Of a DNA stretch of 64,000 bases, positions 3,823-61,371 are shown one piece after another. Below the pieces are notes generated by a model. It saw nothing but the letters and a program-made list of their open reading frames with translations. It ran no database searches and was not told where the DNA came from. The position numbers and the translations under genes were made by a program. The DNA is taken from positions 253,428,739 through 253,492,738 of the forward strand of contig JALIGW010000002.1 in assembly GCA_023053685.1 (NCBI GenBank), given 5' to 3'. Positions within the stretch are counted from its first letter, which is position 1. Each line of letters begins with the position of its first letter. Source of the DNA: Diadophis punctatus similis (lineage: Eukaryota > Chordata > Lepidosauria > Squamata > Dipsadidae).

Positions 3823-4977
3823 CAGGGTCTGCGACCCACTACCGGGCCACGGGCTAATCGCTACTGGGCCGTGAGGGGGGGCCGGCCAGTGTGTGCGCCT
3901 CCGCACATGTACATGGTCCCACTCGCCTGAGTGTTATAACTAAAGTGACCAGATTTTTTTTTCTTCAAGCGGGACACCATTGACGGGGGTGGGTTTCTCC
4001 ATTTGAGTTTTGCCCTCTGCGCATGCGCAGAACGCTGCGCATGCGCAGAGGGCAAAACAGCAAATGTCGGCGTCCAGGTGAGGTGGGGGGGAGGGGGGGA
4101 GGGGGGACGCGGGAGGCCACTGTACGTCCTACCTACCTGGGACTTTTCCCGGTAGCTTCAGTCGCGTTCCTTGCTAATAGCGTCCAGAGCAGAGTAGCCC
4201 CTCCCAGAAGATCACGAGACGTTATCTTTTGGAAGAGGCTGCTCTGCTCTGGGCGCCAATTAGCAAGGAACGCGACTGAAGCTACCGGGAAAAGTCCTAG
4301 GTAGGACGCGCGCCCCGTCCCGTCCTCCAGTCCTGCCCTGCCCCCCCAACCCCCAGCGCGAGACGCGCGTCCTACCTGGGACTTTTCCCGGTAGCTTCAG
4401 TCGCGTTCCTTGCTAATTAGCGCCCAGAGCAGAGCAGCCCCTCCCAGAAGATAACGTCTCGCGATCTTCTGGGAGGGGCTGCTCTGCTCTGGACGCTATT
4501 AGCAAGGAACTCGACTGGAGCTGCTACCGGGAAAAGTCTTAGGTAGGACGCGCGCCCCGCCCTGCCCCGCCCCTTTTGCCGCGGCACACTTAGCATGGCC
4601 TCATGGGACAAGTGCAAAGTGGCGCTCCCCCCCCCCAGGGTTCGCTCTGCCCCGCCCCGCGCCACCCTGTGAATAGAGGGGACTGAATCGGAAGCCTGTC
4701 GCTCGGGCGCGCGTCTGGCTGGAGGAAGAAGCGGGGGCTCAAAAATCGGGACTTTTTAAGAGGGCGGGCGGGACGCGGGACAAAGCATTAAAAAGCGGGT
4801 CTGTCCCGCCAAAATCGGGACGTCTGGTCACCTTAGTTATAACGGGCGCTCGCACAAGGATCGCCGTGAACATCGCAGGCGCTTGTCCACATGCGCGCAC
4901 ACGTGCTTGCCCCTCACACAAAATCAACCCCTCTTCCCCCCTGCCCCCGCTCCGGGCCACCAACCCAGGAAAGATTG
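3823..4977. mobile_element. Degenerate hAT-like element hosting a younger insertion
   Basis: The left end resembles a hAT terminus followed by GGGCCACGGGCTAATCGC. The right part (CTCCGGGCCACCAACCCAGG, then GATTGGGGA) resembles the GGGGATTGGGGACCCCTG end seen at 33305, but is cut off by the L2 copy. The interior is split by the element at 3941-4835. Low confidence because the right terminus is lost. Confidence 0.35.
3941..4835. mobile_element. hAT-like non-autonomous element, GTGACCAGA family, copy 1
   Basis: The ends are TAAAGTGACCAGA and TCTGGTCACCTTA, flanked by a perfect 8-bp duplication GTTATAAC (3933-3940 and 4836-4843), the hAT signature. The left subterminal region carries a palindrome built from TGCGCATGCGCAGA. 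The interior has two successive large inverted repeats (about 4127-4305 and 4368-4548) made of a GC-rich fragment containing CAGTCGCGTTCCTTGCTAAT. It carries no transposase. The same termini, with different interiors, occur at 42158-43146 and 59616-61030. Confidence 0.88.
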
Positions 4978-5586
4978 GGGAATTAATTTAATTTATTGTA
5001 TTTCTATGCCGCCAAACTCTCGAAGGACTCTGGGCGGCTTACAACAGGATATAGAAAATACATTTGAAAACATCATAAAAGATTTAAAAAGTTAAAAATC
5101 ACATACATACATATCATTCAAGGCCGGACCTCGTAAATTGCGAGATCAATGGCCCCAAGCCTGCCGGAAAAGCCAGGTCTTCAATGCTTTCCGGAAGGCC
5201 AATAGAGTGGGGGCAGTCCGGATATCAGGGGGTAGTTGGTTCCAGAGAGCCGGGGCAGCCACAGAGAAGGCCCTTCCCCGCAGGCCCGCCAGCTGACACT
5301 GTTTAGCTGACGGGACCTGGAGGAGACCAACTCTGTGGGATCTTACAGGTCGCTGGGAGCTATGAGGTAGAAGGCGGTTTCAAAGATAACCTGGCCCTGA
5401 GCCATATAGGGCTTTAAAGGTGATAACCAGCACCTTGAATTGAGCCCGGAGACCAATAGGAAGCCAGTGCAGCTCGCGGAGGATTGGTGTAATGTGGGTG
5501 TACCTAGGTGCACCCACAACCACTCGCGTGGCTGCATTCTGGACTAATTGTAGTCTCCGAACACTGTAGAGTGCATTGCAATAATG
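4978..5586 (-). mobile_element. L2-clade LINE, 3' fragment
   Basis: On the minus strand it encodes the decayed C-terminal region of an L2 ORF2 (QLVQNAATRVVVGAPRYTH, HWLPIGLRAQFKVL, FKALYGSGPGYL), followed by a 3'UTR ending in the ATGCCGCC-type tail and AT-rich end near 4980. It is 5' truncated in the reverse transcriptase region and abuts the hAT element at 5595. Confidence 0.85.
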
Positions 5587-9965: not shown

Positions 9966-10795
9966 TTTAATTTAATTTAATTTAATTTAATTTAATGGAT
10001 TTCTATGCCGCCCACTCCCTGGGGACTCTGGGCGGCTCACAGCATGTTAGATTCCATTACAAGTAAAATGCAATAATTAAAATATAAACAATATCAATAC
10101 AATAATTAAAAAATACAACAAATACAAAAGTTAAAAAGAGTATCTCATTACCATCATGGGGGGAGACCCTTATTTCATCTAATTGGTCCCACTTTCACCC
10201 CGCCTGCCGGAAGAGCCAAGTTTTTATTGCTTTCCGGAAGGCCAGTAGGGTAGGAATGGTCCTGATATCCGGGGGAAGCTGGTTCCACAGGGAGGGAGCT
10301 CCCACAGAGAAGGCCCTCCCCCTAGGCCCCGCCAGCCGACATTGTTTGGTCGACGGGACCTGGAGGAGGCCGACTCTGTGGGCCCTAACCGGTCGTATGG
10401 AGGTATGCGGCAGGATGCGGTCCCGAAGATAACCTGGCCCTGAACCATGTAGGGCTTTAAAGGTAACGACCAACACCTTAAATTGGATCCGGAGACTAAT
10501 GGGCAGCCAATGCAGCTGGCGGAGGATCGGTGTTACGTGGGTGCATCTGGGTACACCCACCACAGCTCACGCAGCTGCATTTTGCACCAATTGTAGTTGC
10601 CGGACACTCTTCAAGGGTAGCCCCATGTAGAGCGCATTACAGTAATCCAGCCGTGAGGTGATAAGGGCATGAATGACTGTGAGAAGTGCCTCCTTCTCCA
10701 AGTAGGGTCGCAACTGGTGCACAAGACGTACCTGTGCAAAGGTCCCCCTACCCACAGCTGAAAGATGTTGTTCCAATTTTAGCTGTGTTAATGTT
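9966..10795 (-). mobile_element. L2-clade LINE, 5'-truncated
   Basis: Minus-strand reading gives the end of the L2 reverse transcriptase and C-terminal domain: LEQHLSAVGRGTFAQVRL, LDYCNALYMGLPLKSVRQL, HWLPISLRIQFKVL, and the terminal AFRKAIKTWLFRQAG before a stop. One frameshift splits the frame at about 10565. The 3' end has GCCGCCC and an (AAATT)n-like tail at about 9966-9996. Confidence 0.92.
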
Positions 10796-17538: not shown

Positions 17539-19438
17539 CTTCCTGATACAAAAGGGCCCTCCATGAAATAAGATTCTCCATTTTGCATACACAATTCTAA
17601 AGAATAACCCAATACACAAAGTATTGTAATTGGGTTTGGGGTTTTGTTTTGTTTTTTGTAAATTAAAACCATCTAAAAAGAGAACGAAGATCTGAATCTT
17701 AGATAACATTGATGCATACAAATACATCTTTAAGCAAAACCACAAAGGGCGAATCTCTTATTATCCCCAAAATGGAGGGTAACCACACTCGAAATTATGA
17801 ACCTTCCCACACTAAAAGCACAACTTTTGCAATCCAAACTTAACATCTTAAAACCGAAAGCCTGTTTTCTCTTTGGAGTCTTACAAGCTTCAGCACCCAG
17901 CAATTCAACATAAAAACTCCTCGTGCAGAGCCTGCTATTCAATTTACTGGGACTCGTATTAGATTTAATAGACACAAAGCCACAAGTCTTAGTAAAATAC
18001 ACCCTTGAGGAACCATCCAAATATACCATATTCCTTCTTTTTGGCTGGCACCTCACAAGGGTTAAGTAGCATAGCCTACTCACTAGCATAGTTAAGTACT
18101 CGCCACTCACAGCAACAATCCTAATTGAAAAACAAATACCTTCCAGGAACTGCAATCCATCTTCTGAAGCAAACTAATGTACTACAAAGCTCTTCACACA
18201 CAACAGAGCTTCAAAACACATCGTGGCAAAACAATGGCTCTTTAAAGATTGCCAGGAAATAAACTAGTTTTAAAGAAAACCGCAACCTGAATCCACCCAA
18301 AGTAAAAAATTCGGAAGTCGCAACCTTAATACCAGGCCAGGGTTGCACTCCAGATCAGAAGGTACACATGCAAAAAAAATTACTGAGTATAACCACCAAT
18401 ACTAAAGTGTAACAAGAGAAGCTCTGATTCTCCATCAGAAGAGGAGAACAGAATAGATAGATATAGGCACAAGATGTTTAGAAAGAAAATTGTGTGGAAA
18501 GTCAAGAAGCAAAAAGAGGGTGAATGGTTAATTTGGGGGAGAGGATCCCATAATTTTTTTTTCTAATCAGCTCTTAGATCTGAAGTGCTAAGGGTTCAAT
18601 CCCTATTTATTTCTCTCGCTGTTGCAGACAGATCCACTGAGTTTTTTTATATCTGTATCTAAATGCTATCTTACGGTTTCCTCAAGCCAACAGCTGTTTT
18701 TATTACTGCAAATATTTTCTGCTGCGCCTGCAAATCAGTTTGCCCAGTAGATTGCAGGTAAAGCCCCCAAACCATCTCAGGATCCATTTCCCATTTCCTT
18801 CCTCTTTGTATCCTAAATGCCAGATCCAGAAGGCCCAATAACCCTGCCTGCTTGCTTGTTAATCAAGTTCTTTTTATCCCACAAACCCCTCACCTCTTCC
18901 CAACAATGAATAAAAATAAAAACTTGCTCTGTATTTCCAAGCCTCCCCGATGAAACTCCCCCCCTGAAGTTCCCCAAAAGTGACCCCCTTCTTTGCAAAG
19001 CCCACCTTTCTCCTCTCCCCCCCCCTTTTAAAGAATACCCCTTTCTCCAGAACTTTCAGTTCTACTTTCTGTCCCAAAGGTGGAATTTGGCTTCTAGGAG
19101 CCGATCAAGGCCAGGTTGTTCAGAGCACCCCCTAAAAGTGCCTGGGTCGGGAACCCCCGTCCCACGCCTGGATTTCCAAAGTCTCCACCCGGCGCTCCTT
19201 TCCAATCAGCCACTCAAAGGGGGAAAAAAAAAACCTCGCGGGGAAGCTGAGCCGGCAAACCCACCGCAGGGCCTTCCAGATCCCCGGTTTCGACAAGTCG
19301 GTGAGGCTTTGCCAAGAGTTTGCACCCCTCTCCCCGCACGACACACAAAGGGAGCCCTCCCGCCCCAACTTTCCAGGGCCGCCCCCCTCCCCCTCCCTTT
19401 CGCCCCGGCCGTCCAAAGACTCGAGAAGGAGAACCAAC
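17007..19438. other. PBX2 intron 1
   Basis: 2.4 kb between the two PBX exons. It contains an (AC)n run at about 17466-17491 followed by a (CT)n run at 17497-17536, and otherwise no recognisable transposons, in contrast to the rest of the window. A 141-residue open frame at 17730-18155 on the minus strand shows no domain. Confidence 0.7.
17466..17536. repeat. (AC)n(CT)n compound microsatellite
   Basis: About 26 bp of AC followed by about 40 bp of CT inside PBX2 intron 1. Confidence 0.95.
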
Positions 19439-20560
19439 TTTGCTTGCGCTTCGTCCAAGCTTTGATCGGTGATGGTCATGATCTGCTGGAGGATGTCGCC
19501 GATGTCTTGCTTCCTGGGCTCTCCGTTATCCGAAGGGGGCTCGTGAAGAGGGTGGGGGGTCATGGCTTGGACCCCCTGGACCGAGGGGTGCCCCGCGATC
19601 CCCACCGCCCCCCGCGCTTGGATCAGCCTGCCTGGATCATCCATGCTCGGCGAAGGGATTCCCTCCCCCCCCCGCGCGCGTCCACGGCGAGCCGGGAGCG
19701 ATCGAGGAAGCGATGGGGCTGGCTGGCGGGCGGGCGAGCGAGCGAGCGAGCCCCGGCGGCGGGAGGACGGGCCGCCCGAGACGGAAGGGCGACGCTGGAG
19801 AAAGAAAGGCTGGCGCGCTAGTCCATCTCGGCGGTGCGCTCCCACGGCCCCTTCCTTGGAGACTTTGGGACTGGAAAATGGAGTCCCGCACAAGGGCTGG
19901 AGGAGGAGGAGGAGGGAGGAGGAGGAGCTGAGAAGGGGGAGGGAAAAGAAGAGAAGGAAAAAGGAGGAGAGGAGCTCAGCTTCCCCCTTCCCCCCCCCTT
20001 TCTCCTCCTCCTCCTCCTTCGGCGCCTCCTCCCCTGCTCTTGGTGCGCCCAGGCGGAGAGGCGCAAACTGTGCTTTTATCTATTTGCTGCCCTCCGCTGG
20101 CTTGGGAGAAGCAAAACGCCGGGAGCCGCCGAGCAGCCCCGCTCCTCCAGAGCCGGTGCTCCTCCAGAGCCGACCGGCTTCCTCACGGAGGCGGAGAAGC
20201 GCCCAAACCAAAGGAAAAAGAAGCGGAGGAGCCGCGGGGGCCCTTTGCGCCTTTCGTGGAGCGCAGGGCTGGAGCGCTTTTAACGTTAACGCTTCCCCCC
20301 CACCCCCGCTTCCCGGCGGGACTGCGATCTAGGAAGCGAATCTTTCGGGATCGCCGGCTAGCCTTCCGCCTTCCCGCTGAAGATCCCCAAGACACACACA
20401 CACACACAAACACAAGCACATACACAAGCGGCGGCGCCACCCCCAAATTGAGATCTGCTGTTTGCGGAAAAGTGGCGCTGGCTTTGGCTTGGAGGGGACA
20501 GTTTTTTTTTCATCCACCCAATCGGTCCGCTTGTCGCGCTGAACTACGGCTTCTTTATTT
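19130..20560 (-). promoter_or_regulatory. PBX2 CpG-island promoter and 5'UTR region
   Basis: A sharp rise in G+C and CpG over about 1.4 kb centred on and upstream (to the right) of PBX2 exon 1, giving long open frames on all strands by composition alone. It holds polypurine blocks (about 19895-19985) and a short (CA)n at about 20394-20410. Housekeeping-like PBX promoters are CpG islands of this kind. The transcription start cannot be fixed from sequence; no TATA box is obvious. Confidence 0.75.
19439..19644 (-). CDS. PBX2: PBX2 exon 1 (N-terminus of PBX homeobox cofactor)
   Basis: Start codon at 19644 (minus strand). The exon encodes 68 full codons plus two bases. It opens [10 protein letters not shown], has a variable linker including [11 protein letters not shown], then enters the strongly conserved PBC segment [17 protein letters not shown] followed by SLDEAQA. 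PBX proteins are TALE-class homeodomain cofactors that partner HOX and MEIS/PREP proteins on DNA in the nucleus; this exon carries only the N-terminal leader and the first part of PBC-A. The MDD start and leader look like a mixture of PBX1/PBX3 and non-mammalian PBX2 leaders, so the paralog is not certain from this exon alone. The donor is AAA/GTTGGT, a weak but GT-containing site in exactly the phase required by exon 2; the frame stays open past it, so it is not forced by a stop. The start is chosen because the conserved leader begins there; the open frame extends upstream only through GC-rich 5'UTR. Confidence 0.92.
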
Positions 20561-31300: not shown

Positions 31301-31925
31301 TCTAAATGGAATCACTGACAGATTGTGAGAGGGATCTTGGAGTCTTGGTATACAGCCAACTAAATATGAGCCAGCAGTGTGCAGCAGCAGCCAAAAAAGC
31401 CAACGCAGTCCTGAGCTGCATAAATAGAGGGATACAATCAAGGACCAGAGAGATACTAGTACCATTCTATAAAGCCTTGGTCAGACCACACCTAGAGTAC
31501 TGCATCCAGTTTTGGTCACCACACTACAAAAAAGACATTGAAACCCTAGAGAAAGTGCAGAAGAGAGCAACCAGGATGATAAAGGGTCTAGAAAATAAAA
31601 CATACAAAGAGCGGTTGCAGGAACTGAGCTTGGCCAGTCTGGCAAAGAGAAGGACCAGGGGTGACATAATAGCAGTGTTCCAATACTTGAGGGGATGCCA
31701 CAGAGAGGAGGGGAATCAGGCTGTTTTCCAAGGCACCAGAAAGCCAAACAAGGAATAATGGATGGAAGCTGACCAAGGAGAGATTCAACCTGGAAGTGAG
31801 GAGAAACTTTCTGACGGTGAGAGCGATCAACCAGTGGAACAGCTTGCCAGCGGAGGTTGTGAGAGCCCCAACACTTGCGACCTTCAAGGGGAGACTGGAC
31901 TGCCATCTGTCTCAAATGGTATAGG
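31301..31925 (+). mobile_element. CR1 LINE, second adjacent copy
   Basis: Starts at the same ORF2 position as several copies here ([19 protein letters not shown]), continues through [20 protein letters not shown] and, after a frameshift near 31740, RRNFLTVRAINQWNSLPAEV. It ends at LSQMV without the usual 3'UTR, so it is truncated at both ends. Confidence 0.92.
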
Positions 31926-34168: not shown

Positions 34169-34528
34169 GAGCCGAGGTGGCGCAGTGGTTAAAATGCAGC
34201 ACTGCAATTCAGCAGTTCAGCTGTTCAAATCTCACCGGCTCAAGGTTGACTCAGCCTTCCATCCTTCCGAGGTGGGTAAAATGAGGACCCAGATTGTTGG
34301 GGGCAATATGCTGAACTCTGTAAACCGCTTAGAGAGGGCTGTAAAGCACTATGAAGCGGTATATAAGTCTAAGTCAGTGTTTCCCAACCTTGGCAACTTG
34401 AAGATGTCTGGACTTCAACTCCCAGAATTCCCCAGCCAGCTGGCTGGGGAATTCTGAGAGTTGAAGTCCAGACATCTTCAAGTTGCCAAGGTTGGGAAAC
34501 ACTGGTCTAAGTGCTATTGCTATTGCTA
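34169..34528 (+). mobile_element. Sauria SINE, interrupted by a palindromic MITE
   Basis: Head GAGCCGAGGTGGCGCAGTGG, middle GTAAAATGAGGACCCAGATT, and Bov-B-like tail GTAAACCGCTTAGAGAGGGC and GCTATTGCTATTGCT. The tail is split after AAGTCTAAGT and resumes after the MITE. Confidence 0.93.
34375..34504. mobile_element. Palindromic hAT-like MITE, perfect copy
   Basis: 130 bp, arms almost identical, ends CAGTGTTTCCCAACCTTGGC and its complement. The host SINE sequence GTCTAAGT is duplicated on both sides (34367-34374 and 34505-34512), giving direct proof of 8-bp target duplication for this family. Confidence 0.96.
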
Positions 34529-35666: not shown

Positions 35667-36637
35667 CAGTGGTGAAATCCAATTTTTTTTACTACCAGTT
35701 CTGTGGGCTTGGCTTGGTGGGCATGGTGTGGCTTGGTGGGCATGGCTTGGTGGGTTTGGCAGGGGAAGGATACTGCAAAATCTCCATTCCCACCCCACTC
35801 TGGGGCCAGCCAGAGGTGGTATTTGCCAGTTCTCCAAATTACTCAAAATTTCCGCTACCGGTTCTCTGAACTACTCAAAATTTCCGCTACCGGTTCTCCG
35901 AACTACTCAAAATTTCCGCTACCGGTTCTCCGAACTACTCAAAATTTCCACTACCCATTCTCCAAACTACTCAAAATTTCCGCTACCGGTTCTCCGAACT
36001 ACTCAAAATTTCCGCTACCGGTTCTCCGAACTACTCAAAATTTCCGCTACCGGTTCTCCGAACTACTCAAAATTTCCGCTACCCATTCTCCAAACTACTC
36101 AAAATTTCCGCTACCGGTTCTCCGAAATACTCAAAATTTCCACTAGCGGTTCTCCGAACTACTCAAAATTTCCACTACCGGTTCTCCGAACTACTCAAAA
36201 TTTCCGCTACCCATTCTCCAAACTACTCAAAATTTCCGCTACCGGTTCTCCGAACTACTCAAAATTTCCGCTACCGGTTCTCCGAACTACTCAAAATTTC
36301 CACTACCAGTTCTCCGAACTACTCAAAATTTCCACTACCCATTCTCCAAACTACTCAAAATTTCCGCTACCGGTTCTCCGAACTACTCAAAATTTCCGCT
36401 ACCGGTTCTCCGAACTACTCAAAATTTCCGCTACTGGTTCTCCGAACTACTCAAAATTTCCGCTACCCGTTCTCCGAACTACTCAAAATTTCCGCTACCG
36501 GTTCTCCGAACTACTCAAAATTTCCGCTACCGGTTCTCCGAACTACTCAAAATTTCCACTACCGGTTCTCCGAACTACTCAAAATTTCCGCTACCGGTTC
36601 TTCAGAACCTGTCAAAACCTTTTAGATTTCACCCCTG
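35667..36637. mobile_element. hAT-like MITE carrying a 32-bp minisatellite
   Basis: The ends CAGTGGTGAAATCC and GATTTCACCCCTG, with perfect 8-bp flanks GTCCTAAA (35659-35666 and 36638-36645). Almost the whole interior is the 32-bp tandem array at 35822-36612. The unit contains GCTACCGGTTCTCCG, the subterminal motif of this hAT group. Confidence 0.93.
35822..36612. repeat. 32-bp minisatellite, about 24-25 units
   Basis: Unit AACTACTCAAAATTTCCG plus CTACCGGTTCTCCG with a few variant units (TACCCATTCTCCAA recurs at intervals). Because 32 is not a multiple of 3 and the unit lacks stops in all three forward frames, it yields a spurious 368-residue frame (35728-36834). Confidence 0.97.
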
Positions 36638-36653
36638 GTCCTAAATCTAGGAG

Positions 36654-36999
36654 GGAAGGAAGCCCCATCCTGCCCATCCTGGCTGGCAGTTCTGCTCCCC
36701 TTGCTCTTCTGGGTTCCGGCATGCCAGCCACCTGGTCTTCACGCATGCAGGGGCACCAGAAACCAAAAGAACAGCCACCCGGTGTGCATGTGTGTGCCAG
36801 GAAGATGATCTTCCGGTTTCTGGCACGCGCATGAGCACCAGGCGGCTGCTCTTTCGGTTTCTGGTACTCCCACGCACGTAAAGACCAGCTGGCCGGCATG
36901 CCGGAACCCGGAAAAGCAATGGGCGATGGCTCCATGTGCCTGGAGAGATGGCTCTGTGTGCCGCTTCTGGCACGCATGCCATAGGTTCGGCATCATGGT
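36654..36999 (-). mobile_element. hAT-like MITE, GTGATGGCGAACC family, decayed
   Basis: On the minus strand it begins near ATGATGCCGAACCTATGGC and continues through GTGCCAGAAGCGGCACAC. Flanks TCTAGGAG/TCTAGAAG agree at 7 of 8. The other terminal repeat is not recognisable. Confidence 0.6.
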
Positions 37000-41467: not shown

Positions 41468-43497
41468 CCACCCCGTCTGACTTCAGTGAGGCAGTTGCTG
41501 TAATGTGCCGGTGCCTGGACGACATTAGGATCTGGATGGGGAGGAACAGACTCAGACTTAATCCCGACAAGACTGAGTGGCTTTGGGTATTGCCCCCTAA
41601 GGACTACGACAACTGTCCCTCCTTGGTTTTCGAGGGAGTGAAATTGACCCCCTCGGATCAGGTCCGCAACTTGGGGGTCCTCCTAGACCCACAGCTAAAA
41701 TTGGAGCATCATCTTTCTGCTGTGGCTAGGGGGGCCTTTACACAGGTTCGCCTGATGCACCAGTTGCGGCCATACCTGGAGAAGGAGGCTCTACTCACGG
41801 TCACTCATGCCCTTGTCACCTCCCGCCTGGACTACTGCAACGCGCTCTACATGGGGCTACCCTTGAAGAGTATCCGGAGACTTCAGTTGGTGCAAAATGC
41901 GGCTGCGCGTGCTGTGGTGGGTGTGCCTAGGTACACCCACGTGACACCTATACTCCGCCAGCTGCATTGGTTGCCCATCGGTCTCCGGGTCCAATTCAAG
42001 GTGTTGATCACCATCTTTAAAGCCCTTCATGGCTTAGGACCAGGCTACCTCCGGGACCGCATTCTGCCTCACACTTCCCTTCGACCGGTTAGGGCCCACA
42101 GAGTCGGCCTCCTCCAGGTCCCGTTGGCCAAACACTGCCGGCTGGTGGGCCCTAGGGTAAAGTGACCAGATTTTTTTTTAAGCGGGACGGGGGGCGGGCC
42201 CGCCTGGGCGCCATTTGTTTTTCCCTCTGCGCATGCGCAGAACGCTGCGCATGCGCAGAGGGCAAAACACAGCAAATGTTGGCGTCCAGGTGGGGGGGGA
42301 GGCAGGAGGGCGCTTGGATGCCTGGAGCTCGCGACAGGTAAGCTGCCGGCTGCCTCCTTTCCCCGTCTCCCGCCTCCCGTTCGTTGCTTGCCAGCCCGGC
42401 CGAAGGGGAGGCGGGAGGCGAGGAAAGGCCTCCCGAAGGGGAGGCGGGCTCCCGAAGGGCTGCCGGCTCCCGAAGGGGAGGCGGGAGGCCTTTCCTCGCC
42501 TCCCGCCTCCCCTTCGGGAGCCGGCAGCCCTTCGGGAGCCCGCCTCCCCTTCGGGAGGCCTTTCCTCGCCTCCTGCCTCCCCTTCGGGAGCTGCCCTGGG
42601 GCCGGGCTGGCAAGCAACGAACGGGAGGCGGGAGACGGGGAAAGGAGGCAGCCGGCAGCTTACCTGTCGCGAGCTCCAGGCATCCAAGCCCCGCGGTCTC
42701 CCGGTCGCCCACCCGGCCCCAGGGCAACGGCGGCAGCGAGGCGATGGGGGGAAGGAAGGGGAGGGGGACGAGGAAGGGCTGTTTGTGCCGCCGGAGGGGC
42801 CGCTCGTGAGCTCAAACCGGCGACGGCTCCTCGTCCCTCACCCCTCCCAACAGCAGCATCCCAACAGCAGCGGCGCCTCCGAGGGCGGGGCTAGGGATGG
42901 GGCAGGGGAAGGAGAGGAGGAGCAGCCCCCCTTCTCCCTCTCCCCAGCAGGCAGCCGCCTCGCTGAAATTCCGCCCGACTTGCTTCCGGTACCTCTCTTT
43001 TGCTTCCCCTTTTAAGGTGACCAGACGTCCCGCTGTTTCGGCATTCTTTTCAAAAAAGCGGGACTTTTTGAAAAGAATGCGGGACGCGGGACACACGCTT
43101 GAAAAGCGTGTCTGTCCCGCCAAAAGCGGGACGTCTGGTCACCTTACCCTAGGGGGAGAGCCTTCTCTGTGGCCGGCCCCGTGCTCTGGAACCAACTTCC
43201 CCCAGAGGCCCGAACTATCCCCTCTCTGCTGGCCTTCCGGAAAGCCGTTAAGACATGGCTCTTCTTGCAGGCTGGGGGTAGAGCCTAATCCACTCGAGTT
43301 CACCCCCAAGTATGTATGGTTGTTGAATGCCTGTTGGGTGATTTTAAATATTGAGTCTTTTAACTTTTATATTGCTTTTAAATATTATTTATGAATTGGT
43401 TATTCTGTATTTTTCTCTGTTGTACGCCGCCCTGAGTCCTCCGGGAGTTGGGCGGCATATAAGAATACCAAATAAATAAATAAATAAATCTCACAAG
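41468..43497 (+). mobile_element. L2-clade LINE, C-terminal half of ORF2, split
   Basis: A 220-residue open frame (41503-42165) covers the reverse transcriptase thumb and C-terminal domain: RLRLNPDKTEWLWV, NLGVLLDPQLKLEHHLSAVA, LDYCNALYMGLPLKSIRRL, HWLPIGLRVQFKVL. The hAT element at 42158-43146 splits it. The frame then resumes as ARTIPSLLAFRKAVKTWLF to a stop, and the 3'UTR ends GCCGCCCTGAGTCC with an (AAAT)n tail. It was intact over this part before the insertion. Confidence 0.94.
42158..43146. mobile_element. hAT-like non-autonomous element, GTGACCAGA family, copy 2
   Basis: The ends TAAAGTGACCAGA and TCTGGTCACCTTA, with the L2 sequence CCCTAGGG duplicated perfectly (42150-42157 and 43147-43154). 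Left palindrome of TGCGCATGCGCAGA as in the other copies. The core is a GC-rich inverted repeat: 42292-42400 is repeated in reverse at about 42610-42690, around stacked CCGAAGGGGAGGCGGGAGG units. The segment GCGACAGGTAAGCTGCC looks like an exon/donor junction, and about 42690-42900 is further unique GC-rich sequence. No transposase. Confidence 0.92.
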
Positions 43498-44668: not shown

Positions 44669-44815
44669 ATAGAATAGAATAGAATAGAATAGAATAGAAT
44701 AGAATAGAATAGAATAGAATAGAATAGAATAGAATAGAATTCTTTATTGGCCAAGTGTGATTGGACACACAAGGAATTTGTCTTTGGTGCATATGCTCTC
44801 AGTGTATAAAGCACA
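44669..44815 (-). mobile_element. LINE 3' end with (AATAG)n microsatellite
   Basis: About 70 bp of AATAG pentamers joined to TTCTTTATTGGCCAAGTGTG and ACACACAAGGAATTTGTC. The same junction occurs at 51653-51830. A pentamer array seeded at the 3' end of CR1/L3-type LINEs is described in colubroid snakes. Confidence 0.8.
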
Positions 44816-52755: not shown

Positions 52756-52955
52756 ATAACATATAACATATAACATATAGCATATAGCATATAGCATATA
52801 GCATATAGCATATAGCATAGCATAGCATAGCATAGCATAGCATAGCATAGCATAGCATAGCATAGCATAGCATAGCATAGCATAGCATAGCATAGCATAG
52901 CATAGCATAGCATAGCATAGCATAGCATAACATAACATAACATAACATAACATAA
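52756..52955. repeat. (CATAG)n pentanucleotide array with heptamer edge
   Basis: About 200 bp passing from ATAACAT heptamers to CATATAG heptamers, then about 25 CATAG pentamers, and finally CATAA pentamers. Confidence 0.97.
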
Positions 52956-59144: not shown

Positions 59145-59615
59145 TACAATTAGTCCTCGATTTATGACCACAATTGAGCCCAACATTTCTGTTGTTAAGC
59201 AAGACAGTTGTTAAGTCAGTTTTATTCCATTTTACGACCTTTCTGGCCACAGTTGTCAAGTGAATCACTGCAGTTGTTAAGTTAGTAGCAAGGTTGTTCA
59301 ATGAATCTGGCTTCCCCACTGACTTTGTTTGTCAGAAGGTCGCAAACAGGGATCACGTGACCCCGTGGACACTGCAACCGTCATAAATATGAACTAATGC
59401 AGCGGCACGAGCTGTGGTGGGGGTACCTAGATTCACCCATGTTACACCCATACTGCGCGAGCTGCACTGGCTGCCTATTGGTCTCCGGACACAATTCAAG
59501 GTGTTGGTTATGACCTTTAAAGCCCTATATGGCTCAGGACCAGACTATCTCCGAGACCGTCTGCTACCCCACACTTCCCAGAGACCAGTAAGATCCCACA
59601 GAGTTGGGCTTCTCC

Positions 59616-61030
59616 TAAAGTGACCAGATTTTTTTTTTTAAGCGGGACACCGAAGGGGGCGGGGCCGCCTGGACGCCGGGTTTTGCCCTCTGCGCATGCG
59701 CAGAACGCTGCGCATGCGCAGAGGGCAAAAGACCGCTAATGTTGTTTCACAAGAGCCATTCGCGTGCAGGGCAATTTATAAATAGCGGCTGCCAGGTAGG
59801 GAGCCGGCCGGGGTTGCGCAGGGCTGGGGGAGGCTCGCTAGCCCGGCAGCTCCGGCCGCAGGAAAGAGGGGGGAAGGGTGCCGTACTGGGAAGGGCCAGC
59901 AGTCGCCGCCGCCTGAGGGGGCCACCCCCCCCGCCCGCCCGCCCGCTTTGCTGCAGGGGACGCTGCACCGGATCCCGAGTCGCGCCGGCTCTCCCGCGGC
60001 CACGATGCCCGCCGACCTGATGGAGAAGAGCTCCTCCTCGCCCGCGGCGGCCATCCCGGCCAGCGCCGGAGGAGTCAACGCAGGACGCCCGCCCGCCGCC
60101 CACAGCTCAGAGGCCTGCTGCTGCTGCTGCTGCGGCTGGGCCCCCAGTCCCGGCGGCGGGAAGGCTGCGGCGGCGGCCCCAGCCTGCTGAGCCAGCGCCG
60201 GCCCGAGGGTCATGGATGCGACTCCTTCGCTCGGGCCACCCCGCCCACCGCGACGCCGGCCTTTTCGAGAGGGCGGGGCTGCATCAGGCGCCTCTCCACC
60301 TTCCAGGGGCGGCCCGAGCGAAGGAGTCGCATCCATGACCCTCGGGCCGGCGCTGGCTCAGCAGGCTGGGGCCGCCGCCGCAGCCTTCCCGCCGCCGGGA
60401 CTGGGGGCCCAGCCGCAGCAGCAGCAGCAGCAGGCCTCTCAGCTGTGGGCGGCGGGCGGGCGTCCTGCGTTGACTCCTCCGGCGCTGGCCGGGATGGCCG
60501 CCGCGGGCGAGGAGGAGCTCTTCTCCATCAGGTCGGCGGGCATCGTGGCCACGGGAGAGCCGGCGCGACTCGGGATCCGGTGCAGCGTCCCCTGCAGCGA
60601 AGCGGGCGGGCGGGCGGGCGGGGTGGCCCCCTCAGGCGGCGGCGACTGCTGGCCCTTCCCAGTACGGCACCCCCCCGCTCTTTCCTGCGGCCGGAGCTGC
60701 CGGGCTAGCGAGCCTCCCCCAGCCCTGTGCAACCCCGGCCGGCTCCCTACCTGGCGGCCGCTATTTATAAACTGCCCTGCACGCGAACGGCTCTTGTGAA
60801 ACTTGCCAAACTTGTGAAGAGCCCTTGCAAAGCCGTGCCCGCCGAAAATTGTATTTGTCTTTCGCCCCCCATGAGCCGCGGCCGGCCGTCCCTGCAGGGG
60901 AGAGCCCGCCCCCCAGCCCTCCCTCGCCCCTTTCAAAAAATCGGGACTTTTTAAGAGGGCGGGCGGGACGCGGGACAAACCATTAAAAAGCGGGTCTGTC
61001 CCGCCAAAATCGGGACGTCTGGTCACCTTA
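59616..61030. mobile_element. hAT-like non-autonomous element, GTGACCAGA family, copy 3, with captured HES-like promoter
   Basis: The ends TAAAGTGACCAGA and TCTGGTCACCTTA, with the L2 sequence GCTTCTCC duplicated perfectly (59608-59615 and 61031-61038). It has the left TGCGCATGCGCAGA palindrome as in the sister copies. The core is a roughly 500-bp inverted repeat (about 59745-60240 and 60310-60815). Each arm contains GTTTCACAAGAGCC, TTCGCGTGCAGG, a TATA box (TTTATAAATAGCGGC), then about 220 bp later an ATG opening MPADLMEKSSSSPAA. This order and wording match the HES1/HES4 promoter, 5'UTR and N-terminus, as known from mammals and frogs. Further in, a CAG-repeat segment reads polyglutamine on the opposite strand (GLGAQPQQQQQQA). 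The bHLH domain is absent. No transposase. Confidence 0.9.
59745..60070 (+). pseudogene. Captured HES1/HES4-like promoter and start of exon 1 (left arm)
   Basis: TATA box at about 59777-59784, start codon at 60005, first residues MPADLMEKSSSSPAA then AIPAS. HES1-type proteins are bHLH-Orange repressors downstream of Notch; only the pre-bHLH leader is here, after which the frame runs into unrelated GC-rich sequence. The mirror copy is at about 60475-60815 on the minus strand with its start codon at 60543. Confidence 0.72.
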
Positions 61031-61371
61031 GCTTCTCCGGGTCCCGTCAGCTAAACAATGTCGGCTGGCAGGCCCACGGGGATGGGCCTTCTCTGTGGCT
61101 GCTCCGGCTCTCTGGAACCAATTGCCGCCTGAGGTCCGTACCACCCCCACCTTGTTGGCCTTCAGAAAAGCCGTTAAGACCTGGCTTTTCCGGCATGCCT
61201 GGAACTAATAACCCATAGAGAAGATGCGAGATTGTAAGGATTTTATACGTATGATATATTTTAACGTGTTTTTAGATGTTTTAGATGTTTTTATTTTTAT
61301 TTTTGTTGGTTTCTGGTTGTGAGCCGCCCAGAGTCCATGCGGAGTTGGGTGGCATATAAAACTAAACCAAA

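Follow-up and report, generated by a model that had tools for sequence, protein, structure and literature searches.

The window analysed here, a stretch of 64,000 nucleotides, contains at 59616-61030 an element that we call E3. The same 8 bp, GCTTCTCC, stand on both sides of it (59608-59615 and 61031-61038), a perfect target site duplication (TSD) that the original prediction had correctly pointed out together with hAT-like ends. The tips of E3 read TAAAGTGACCAGA and TAAGGTGACCAGA, and these short terminal inverted repeats (TIRs) fit YARNG, the hAT tip consensus. The hAT label is based on the 8-bp TSD and on this consensus rather than on a matched autonomous element; the TIR letters, when searched for in literature text, returned nothing on a related topic. 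The left end module (59616-59743, forward strand) consists of the TIR, a T-run, a GC-rich stretch and a 23-bp hairpin with CTGCGCATGCGCAG, and the right end module occupies 60936-61030. No transposase was found in E3: the three E3 ORFs scanned against Pfam gave zero matches, as expected of a nonautonomous element.

When the flanks of E3 were joined across the element, they aligned without a break to LINE-like copies at 5155-5538 and 10202-10581 of the same window. Hence, E3 sits in an older repeat copy, the empty form of which survives elsewhere. Taking E3 together with a second element, E2, the empty sites of both lie in such copies at 5153-5538 and 10198-10581. By our reading of its ORF at 41503-42165, the repeat that hosts E3 would be a LINE; Pfam returned no match for that ORF.

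Ten ORFs of the window were scanned against Pfam, and two gave matches, both below the curated cut-off: DUF5575_C in ORF 31306-31758 and PBC in ORF 19132-19893 (reverse strand, E 0.0058). We take the latter to be a PBX-family exon 1; a PDB search with it gave no match, and relative to this ORF, E3 would be placed some 40 kb upstream. A tandem array of 24 copies of a 32-bp unit spans 35829-36601 in one open frame (ORF 35728-36834). Pentanucleotide arrays of ATAGA and ATAGC lie at 44669-44740 and 52812-52954, the array at 44669-44740 being of the AATAG type. Arrays of the AATAG type are described as expanded in advanced snakes (PMC8303610). Along with the best HES-1 match described below, the array at 44669-44740 would point to squamate DNA.

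Two further elements in the window, both missed by the original prediction, have both ends in common with E3. E1 (3941-4835, forward strand) has the TSD GTTATAAC and E2 (42158-43146, forward strand) has CCCTAGGG, so that all three show the 8-bp TSD of the hAT superfamily. The left end module of E3 is common to E1 and E2, and pairwise similarity among the three is confined to the end modules, which measure some 115-158 bp on the left and 95-100 bp on the right; the likeness extends to the left-end hairpin and to a short end copy inside E2. Between E1 and E3, the right ends are identical at 94 of 95 positions and the left ends are about 84% alike. This pattern fits patchwork repair or end exchange, and it could also mean that one end is older than the other. 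Within the window, we found no further copy of the E3 junctions with another TSD. In the right end of E2 (43013-43146), the terminal repeat recurs internally in inverted orientation (TAAGGTGACCAGACGTCCCG), so that these last 134 bp look like a mini foldback element.

The interiors of the three elements are different sequences, each of them a GC-rich palindrome: 4132-4547 in E1 (85% identity), 42308-42692 in E2 (90%) and 59744-60802 in E3 (94%). Their CpG observed/expected ratios are 0.83, 0.69 and 0.82, respectively. There are 41 inverted-repeat rows in the window with arms no more than 1000 bp apart, 23 of them at least 80 columns long, and no compact palindrome among these 23 that reaches 85% identity is longer than the three interiors. 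Several shorter palindromes, of 123-160 bp, occur elsewhere in the window, and a near-perfect one of 130 bp (98%) at 34375-34504 is MITE-like. One arm of the E2 filler carries CAGGTAAG, which resembles a splice donor, and the opposite arm carries the complement. That the E1 and E2 fillers are host promoters would be conjecture.

In E3, the left arm of the palindrome (59744-60242, forward strand) and the right arm (60306-60802, reverse strand) are identical in 487 of 499 columns, with 10 mismatches and one 2-nt gap; an inverted repeat of about 500 bp had been predicted inside the ends. Six of the 10 mismatches are transitions at CpG. The arms are near 74% G+C, versus 45% for the window, and their CpG observed/expected ratios are 0.79 and 0.83, versus 0.51. 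A 63-bp spacer (60243-60305) separates them; 20 bp of it weakly resemble the right end, a marginal likeness that 19 of 2000 shuffles equalled. Both arms contain GTTTCACAAGAGCC, TTCGCGTGCAG and TATAAATA, and each has a TATA box facing inward (59777-59784, forward; 60762-60769, reverse). Downstream, at distances of 228 bp in the left arm and 226 bp in the right, are ATGs (60005, forward; 60543, reverse), each of which opens MPADLMEKSSSSPAAAIPASA. The promoter motifs, the TATA box in each arm and an ATG some 220 bp beyond it had all been anticipated, and all were confirmed.

Does the promoter-like part of the arms derive from HES1? We compared it with a printed 117-bp fragment that we take to be the mammalian Hes1 promoter. 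In-frame translation of this fragment yields KLLWERKFGKFHTSRSRA, and these 18 consecutive residues are present in P0058, a Denticeps clupeoides protein labelled HES-1-B-like in which the predicted N-terminus reads through the promoter of the gene itself; this supports the name Hes1 for the fragment. It was made for a Notch reporter and is printed without the gene name (PMC4391858). The right arm of E3 (60750-60813, reverse strand) aligned to the fragment over 64 bp without a gap, with 54 of 64 positions identical, the TATA box in register and a score of 78; the left arm (59744-59796, forward strand) matched at 43 of 53 positions, with a score of 56. The best score was 29 among 2000 shuffles of the fragment, 32 among 2000 shuffles of the right arm and 24 among 191 background chunks of the window. 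Hence, the likeness is not due to chance. TTTCAC, TTCGCGTGCAG and TATA occur in the same order and spacing as in the printed fragment (PMC4391858), which bears out the motif order around the TATA box that had been claimed for the HES1 promoter. Read through, the window also shares 14 of 19 residues with P0058 around the TATA box (KFGKFH.SRSRA...IN.G).

The similarity in the right arm reaches 11 bp past the palindrome; from there, 60814-60935 fills the distance to the right end module. Within the promoter stretch, the arms differ at three sites. Two are CpG transitions at which the right arm has kept the printed base, and at the third, a non-CpG site, the left arm has kept it.

The start codons lead to the same gene. 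The first 21 codons after each ATG (60005-60067, forward strand; 60481-60543, reverse strand) encode MPADLMEKSSSSPAAAIPASA, which is identical at 20 of 21 residues to HES-1 of the python Liasis olivaceus (P0106) and at 15-19 of 21 to 14 other HES-1-type proteins, hand-picked, mostly from reptiles, among the best 120 of 3179 matches. The peptide scored 94 against python HES-1. None of 5000 shuffles exceeded 56, and none of the 2558 six-frame stretches taken from elsewhere in the window exceeded 42; again, the likeness is not due to chance. When the 46 residues surrounding the HES1-like start (residues 150-195 of the ORF) were used in a protein search, 19 candidates came back, none with E ≤ 10. 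Core promoter (54 of 64 bp) and N-terminal codons (20 of 21 residues) both resemble HES1, and within a comparison that covered squamate HES-1, HES1 is the source of the captured gene start.

The resemblance ceases at codon 21, and the exon 1 continuation of the fetched HES-1 proteins, PDKPxTAxExRK, was not found in E3. Hence, E3 holds a fragment rather than a gene. The frames opened by the HES1-like starts run for 61 codons (left) and 34 codons (right), and as they read, a HES1-coding role for them is excluded. Past codon 21, about 175 bp of each arm (60068-60242 and 60306-60480) is a second, GC-rich filler, which in the left arm reads MTLGPALAQQAG...QQQQQQASELWAAGG on the reverse strand; a protein search with it, with stops read as W, returned 1999 candidates, none with E ≤ 10. 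The original prediction of a HES promoter plus leader codons in each arm needs this one correction.

A further part of that prediction, that E3 carries a Notch-type promoter, did not survive. The Hes1 paired site combines one canonical RBPJ site with a slightly weaker reverse one 16 nt away (PMC7685452). The printed Hes1 fragment carries TGTGGGAA and the reverse partner CGTGTGAA, and with up to two mismatches allowed, it contains five RBPJ-like sites, one of them perfect. On neither strand of E3 did we find TGTGGGAA or anything within one mismatch of it, and the looser RBPJ site consensus YGTGDGAA had no match on either strand. E3 has 10 sites at exactly two mismatches from TGTGGGAA, a distance that falls in the 'low affinity' class (PMC7685452), and none of them is at the position of the paired site. 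In both arms, the reverse partner reads CTTGTGAA, one base off CGTGTGAA and three mismatches from TGTGGGAA; this change would either predate the separation of the arms or have been in the host gene already. Compared with the mammalian Hes1 promoter, then, E3 is without a consensus RBPJ site, and with the paired site intact in neither arm, we rejected the Notch-type promoter. A Notch-responsive role for the arms is not supported; as promoters, they would at most be of a basal TATA/CpG-island type.

Between its TIRs and TSDs, E3 holds host-like, non-transposon sequence (the HES1 promoter and first codons), as a Pack-TIR does. We consider it very probable that E3 is a nonautonomous hAT-type Pack element in which a HES1 piece and a second filler form an inverted duplication. 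The central proposal of the original prediction, a nonautonomous hAT with a captured HES promoter and start codon in head-to-head arms, is supported.

How might such an element arise? The captured piece would comprise the core promoter, the 5' leader and the first 21 codons of HES1, presumably the host's own. Capture may have occurred by template switching while a break in or beside the element was repaired, with the HES1 piece being joined to a second GC-rich piece to give a compound filler. Foldback priming at a broken end could have generated the palindrome, with its two inward-facing arms and 63-bp spacer. Only in the right arm does the HES1 promoter match continue for 11 bp beyond the palindrome, so this arm was probably made first, and the left arm would be a shortened mirror copy of it. 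Template-switch capture followed by foldback copying would combine two published routes. For movement, transposase would have been supplied in trans, and the finished element may have moved as a unit, with its filler already inside, or may have gained the filler after insertion. The presence of palindromic filler in all three elements with these ends, a sample drawn from one window, points to a repeatable capture-and-foldback route.

Perhaps the filler was instead added in place? A plain element would have inserted here, a break inside it would have been gap filled, and the palindrome would be single and would never have moved. Most animal Pack-TIRs are indeed single copy, which has been explained by transposition-independent gap filling (PMC8277862), and the unequal similarity of the E1 and E3 ends is what patchwork repair would give. 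However, 160 of 281 unique cases lie no more than 15 kb from their parent (PMC8277862), and we found no other HES1-like start in the window. The window extends only 2970 bp to the right of E3, so a near parent could still lie on that side. We regard in-place filling as possible, though somewhat doubtful.

The source of the captured piece could also be HES4 or another HES paralogue, as promoter and N-terminal motifs may be common to the paralogues. We think this improbable in view of the near-identity to python HES-1 and the close match to the 14 other HES-1-type proteins. These were drawn from proteins fetched with a HES1 query, and the squamate proteins compared were HES-1; within that comparison, the HES1 part of the predicted HES1/HES4-type source is upheld. 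More improbable still is that only one copy was captured and that assembly error produced the head-to-head arrangement: palindromes are sometimes misassembled, but here 10 substitutions and a 2-nt gap distinguish the arms, the right arm alone reaches deeper into the HES1 promoter, the TSD is undamaged, and the same geometry recurs in two other elements. Finally, though each arm has kept an intact TATA box and start codon, a genuine host gene start at E3 is scarcely conceivable, given the enclosing transposon ends and TSD, the LINE-like empty site, the early stops and the three ORFs without a Pfam match.

If E3 is, as we favor, a Pack element with an inverted HES1 piece, what could it produce? 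The RNA of 59811-60740 is predicted to fold at -1136.8 kcal/mol with 440 pairs, whereas 20 shuffles averaged -544. On this model, RNA transcribed through the middle of the palindrome would form a near-perfect hairpin and would not code for HES1; the predicted long stem would pair HES1 leader sequence with its antisense. One could go further and suppose that in this lineage the hAT family routinely takes up pieces of CpG-island promoters as head-to-head palindromes, scattering inward-facing promoter pairs whose read-through hairpins carry sense and antisense HES1 leader. We hold this to be unlikely. If it were true, hairpin RNAs from the scattered palindromes could enter small-RNA or editing pathways that act on the parent gene.

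Pack-hATs are already known in animals: 370 animal Pack-TIRs have been described in 100 genomes, 208 of them hAT, with four multicopy cases in reference genomes (PMC8277862). The routes proposed for them are gap filling with microhomology where an element is single copy and, where it is multicopy, fork switching followed by transposition (PMC8277862). E3 resembles them as a TIR element with a TSD that encloses non-transposon host sequence; among them, the frog element hAT-N8_XT carries 291 bp of CAPSL 5' UTR (Tan et al. 2021, PMC8277862). It differs in its core promoter and start codon, its second filler and its head-to-head palindrome, and palindromic filler is found in three of three elements of this window, whereas the main text of that study contains no word beginning 'palindrom' (PMC8277862). 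Searches of an open-access library yielded neither palindromic Pack-hATs nor this HES1 capture. The capture of promoter plus start as a palindrome looks like a new form of these elements.

Inverted duplication itself has precedents. Work in yeast supports an origin of inverted duplications by foldback priming at double-strand breaks (PMC10622511), and such duplications share with E3 a short spacer; by analogy, a similar mechanism may have acted in E3, though the yeast events are of chromosome scale and the E3 palindrome spans hundreds of base pairs inside a transposon. In Drosophila, Ssk-FB4 is a multicopy TIR element with long inverted repeats that contains a gene and its 5' upstream region (PMC8277862). 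Both Ssk-FB4 and E3 have captured a gene 5' region, but the inverted repeats of Ssk-FB4 are those of the transposon, whereas those of E3 are the captured host-like sequence itself. E3 thus provides a clear animal case of a cut-and-paste element that holds more than a stray gene fragment: its cargo is the TATA core promoter of a named developmental regulator together with the leader and the start codon.
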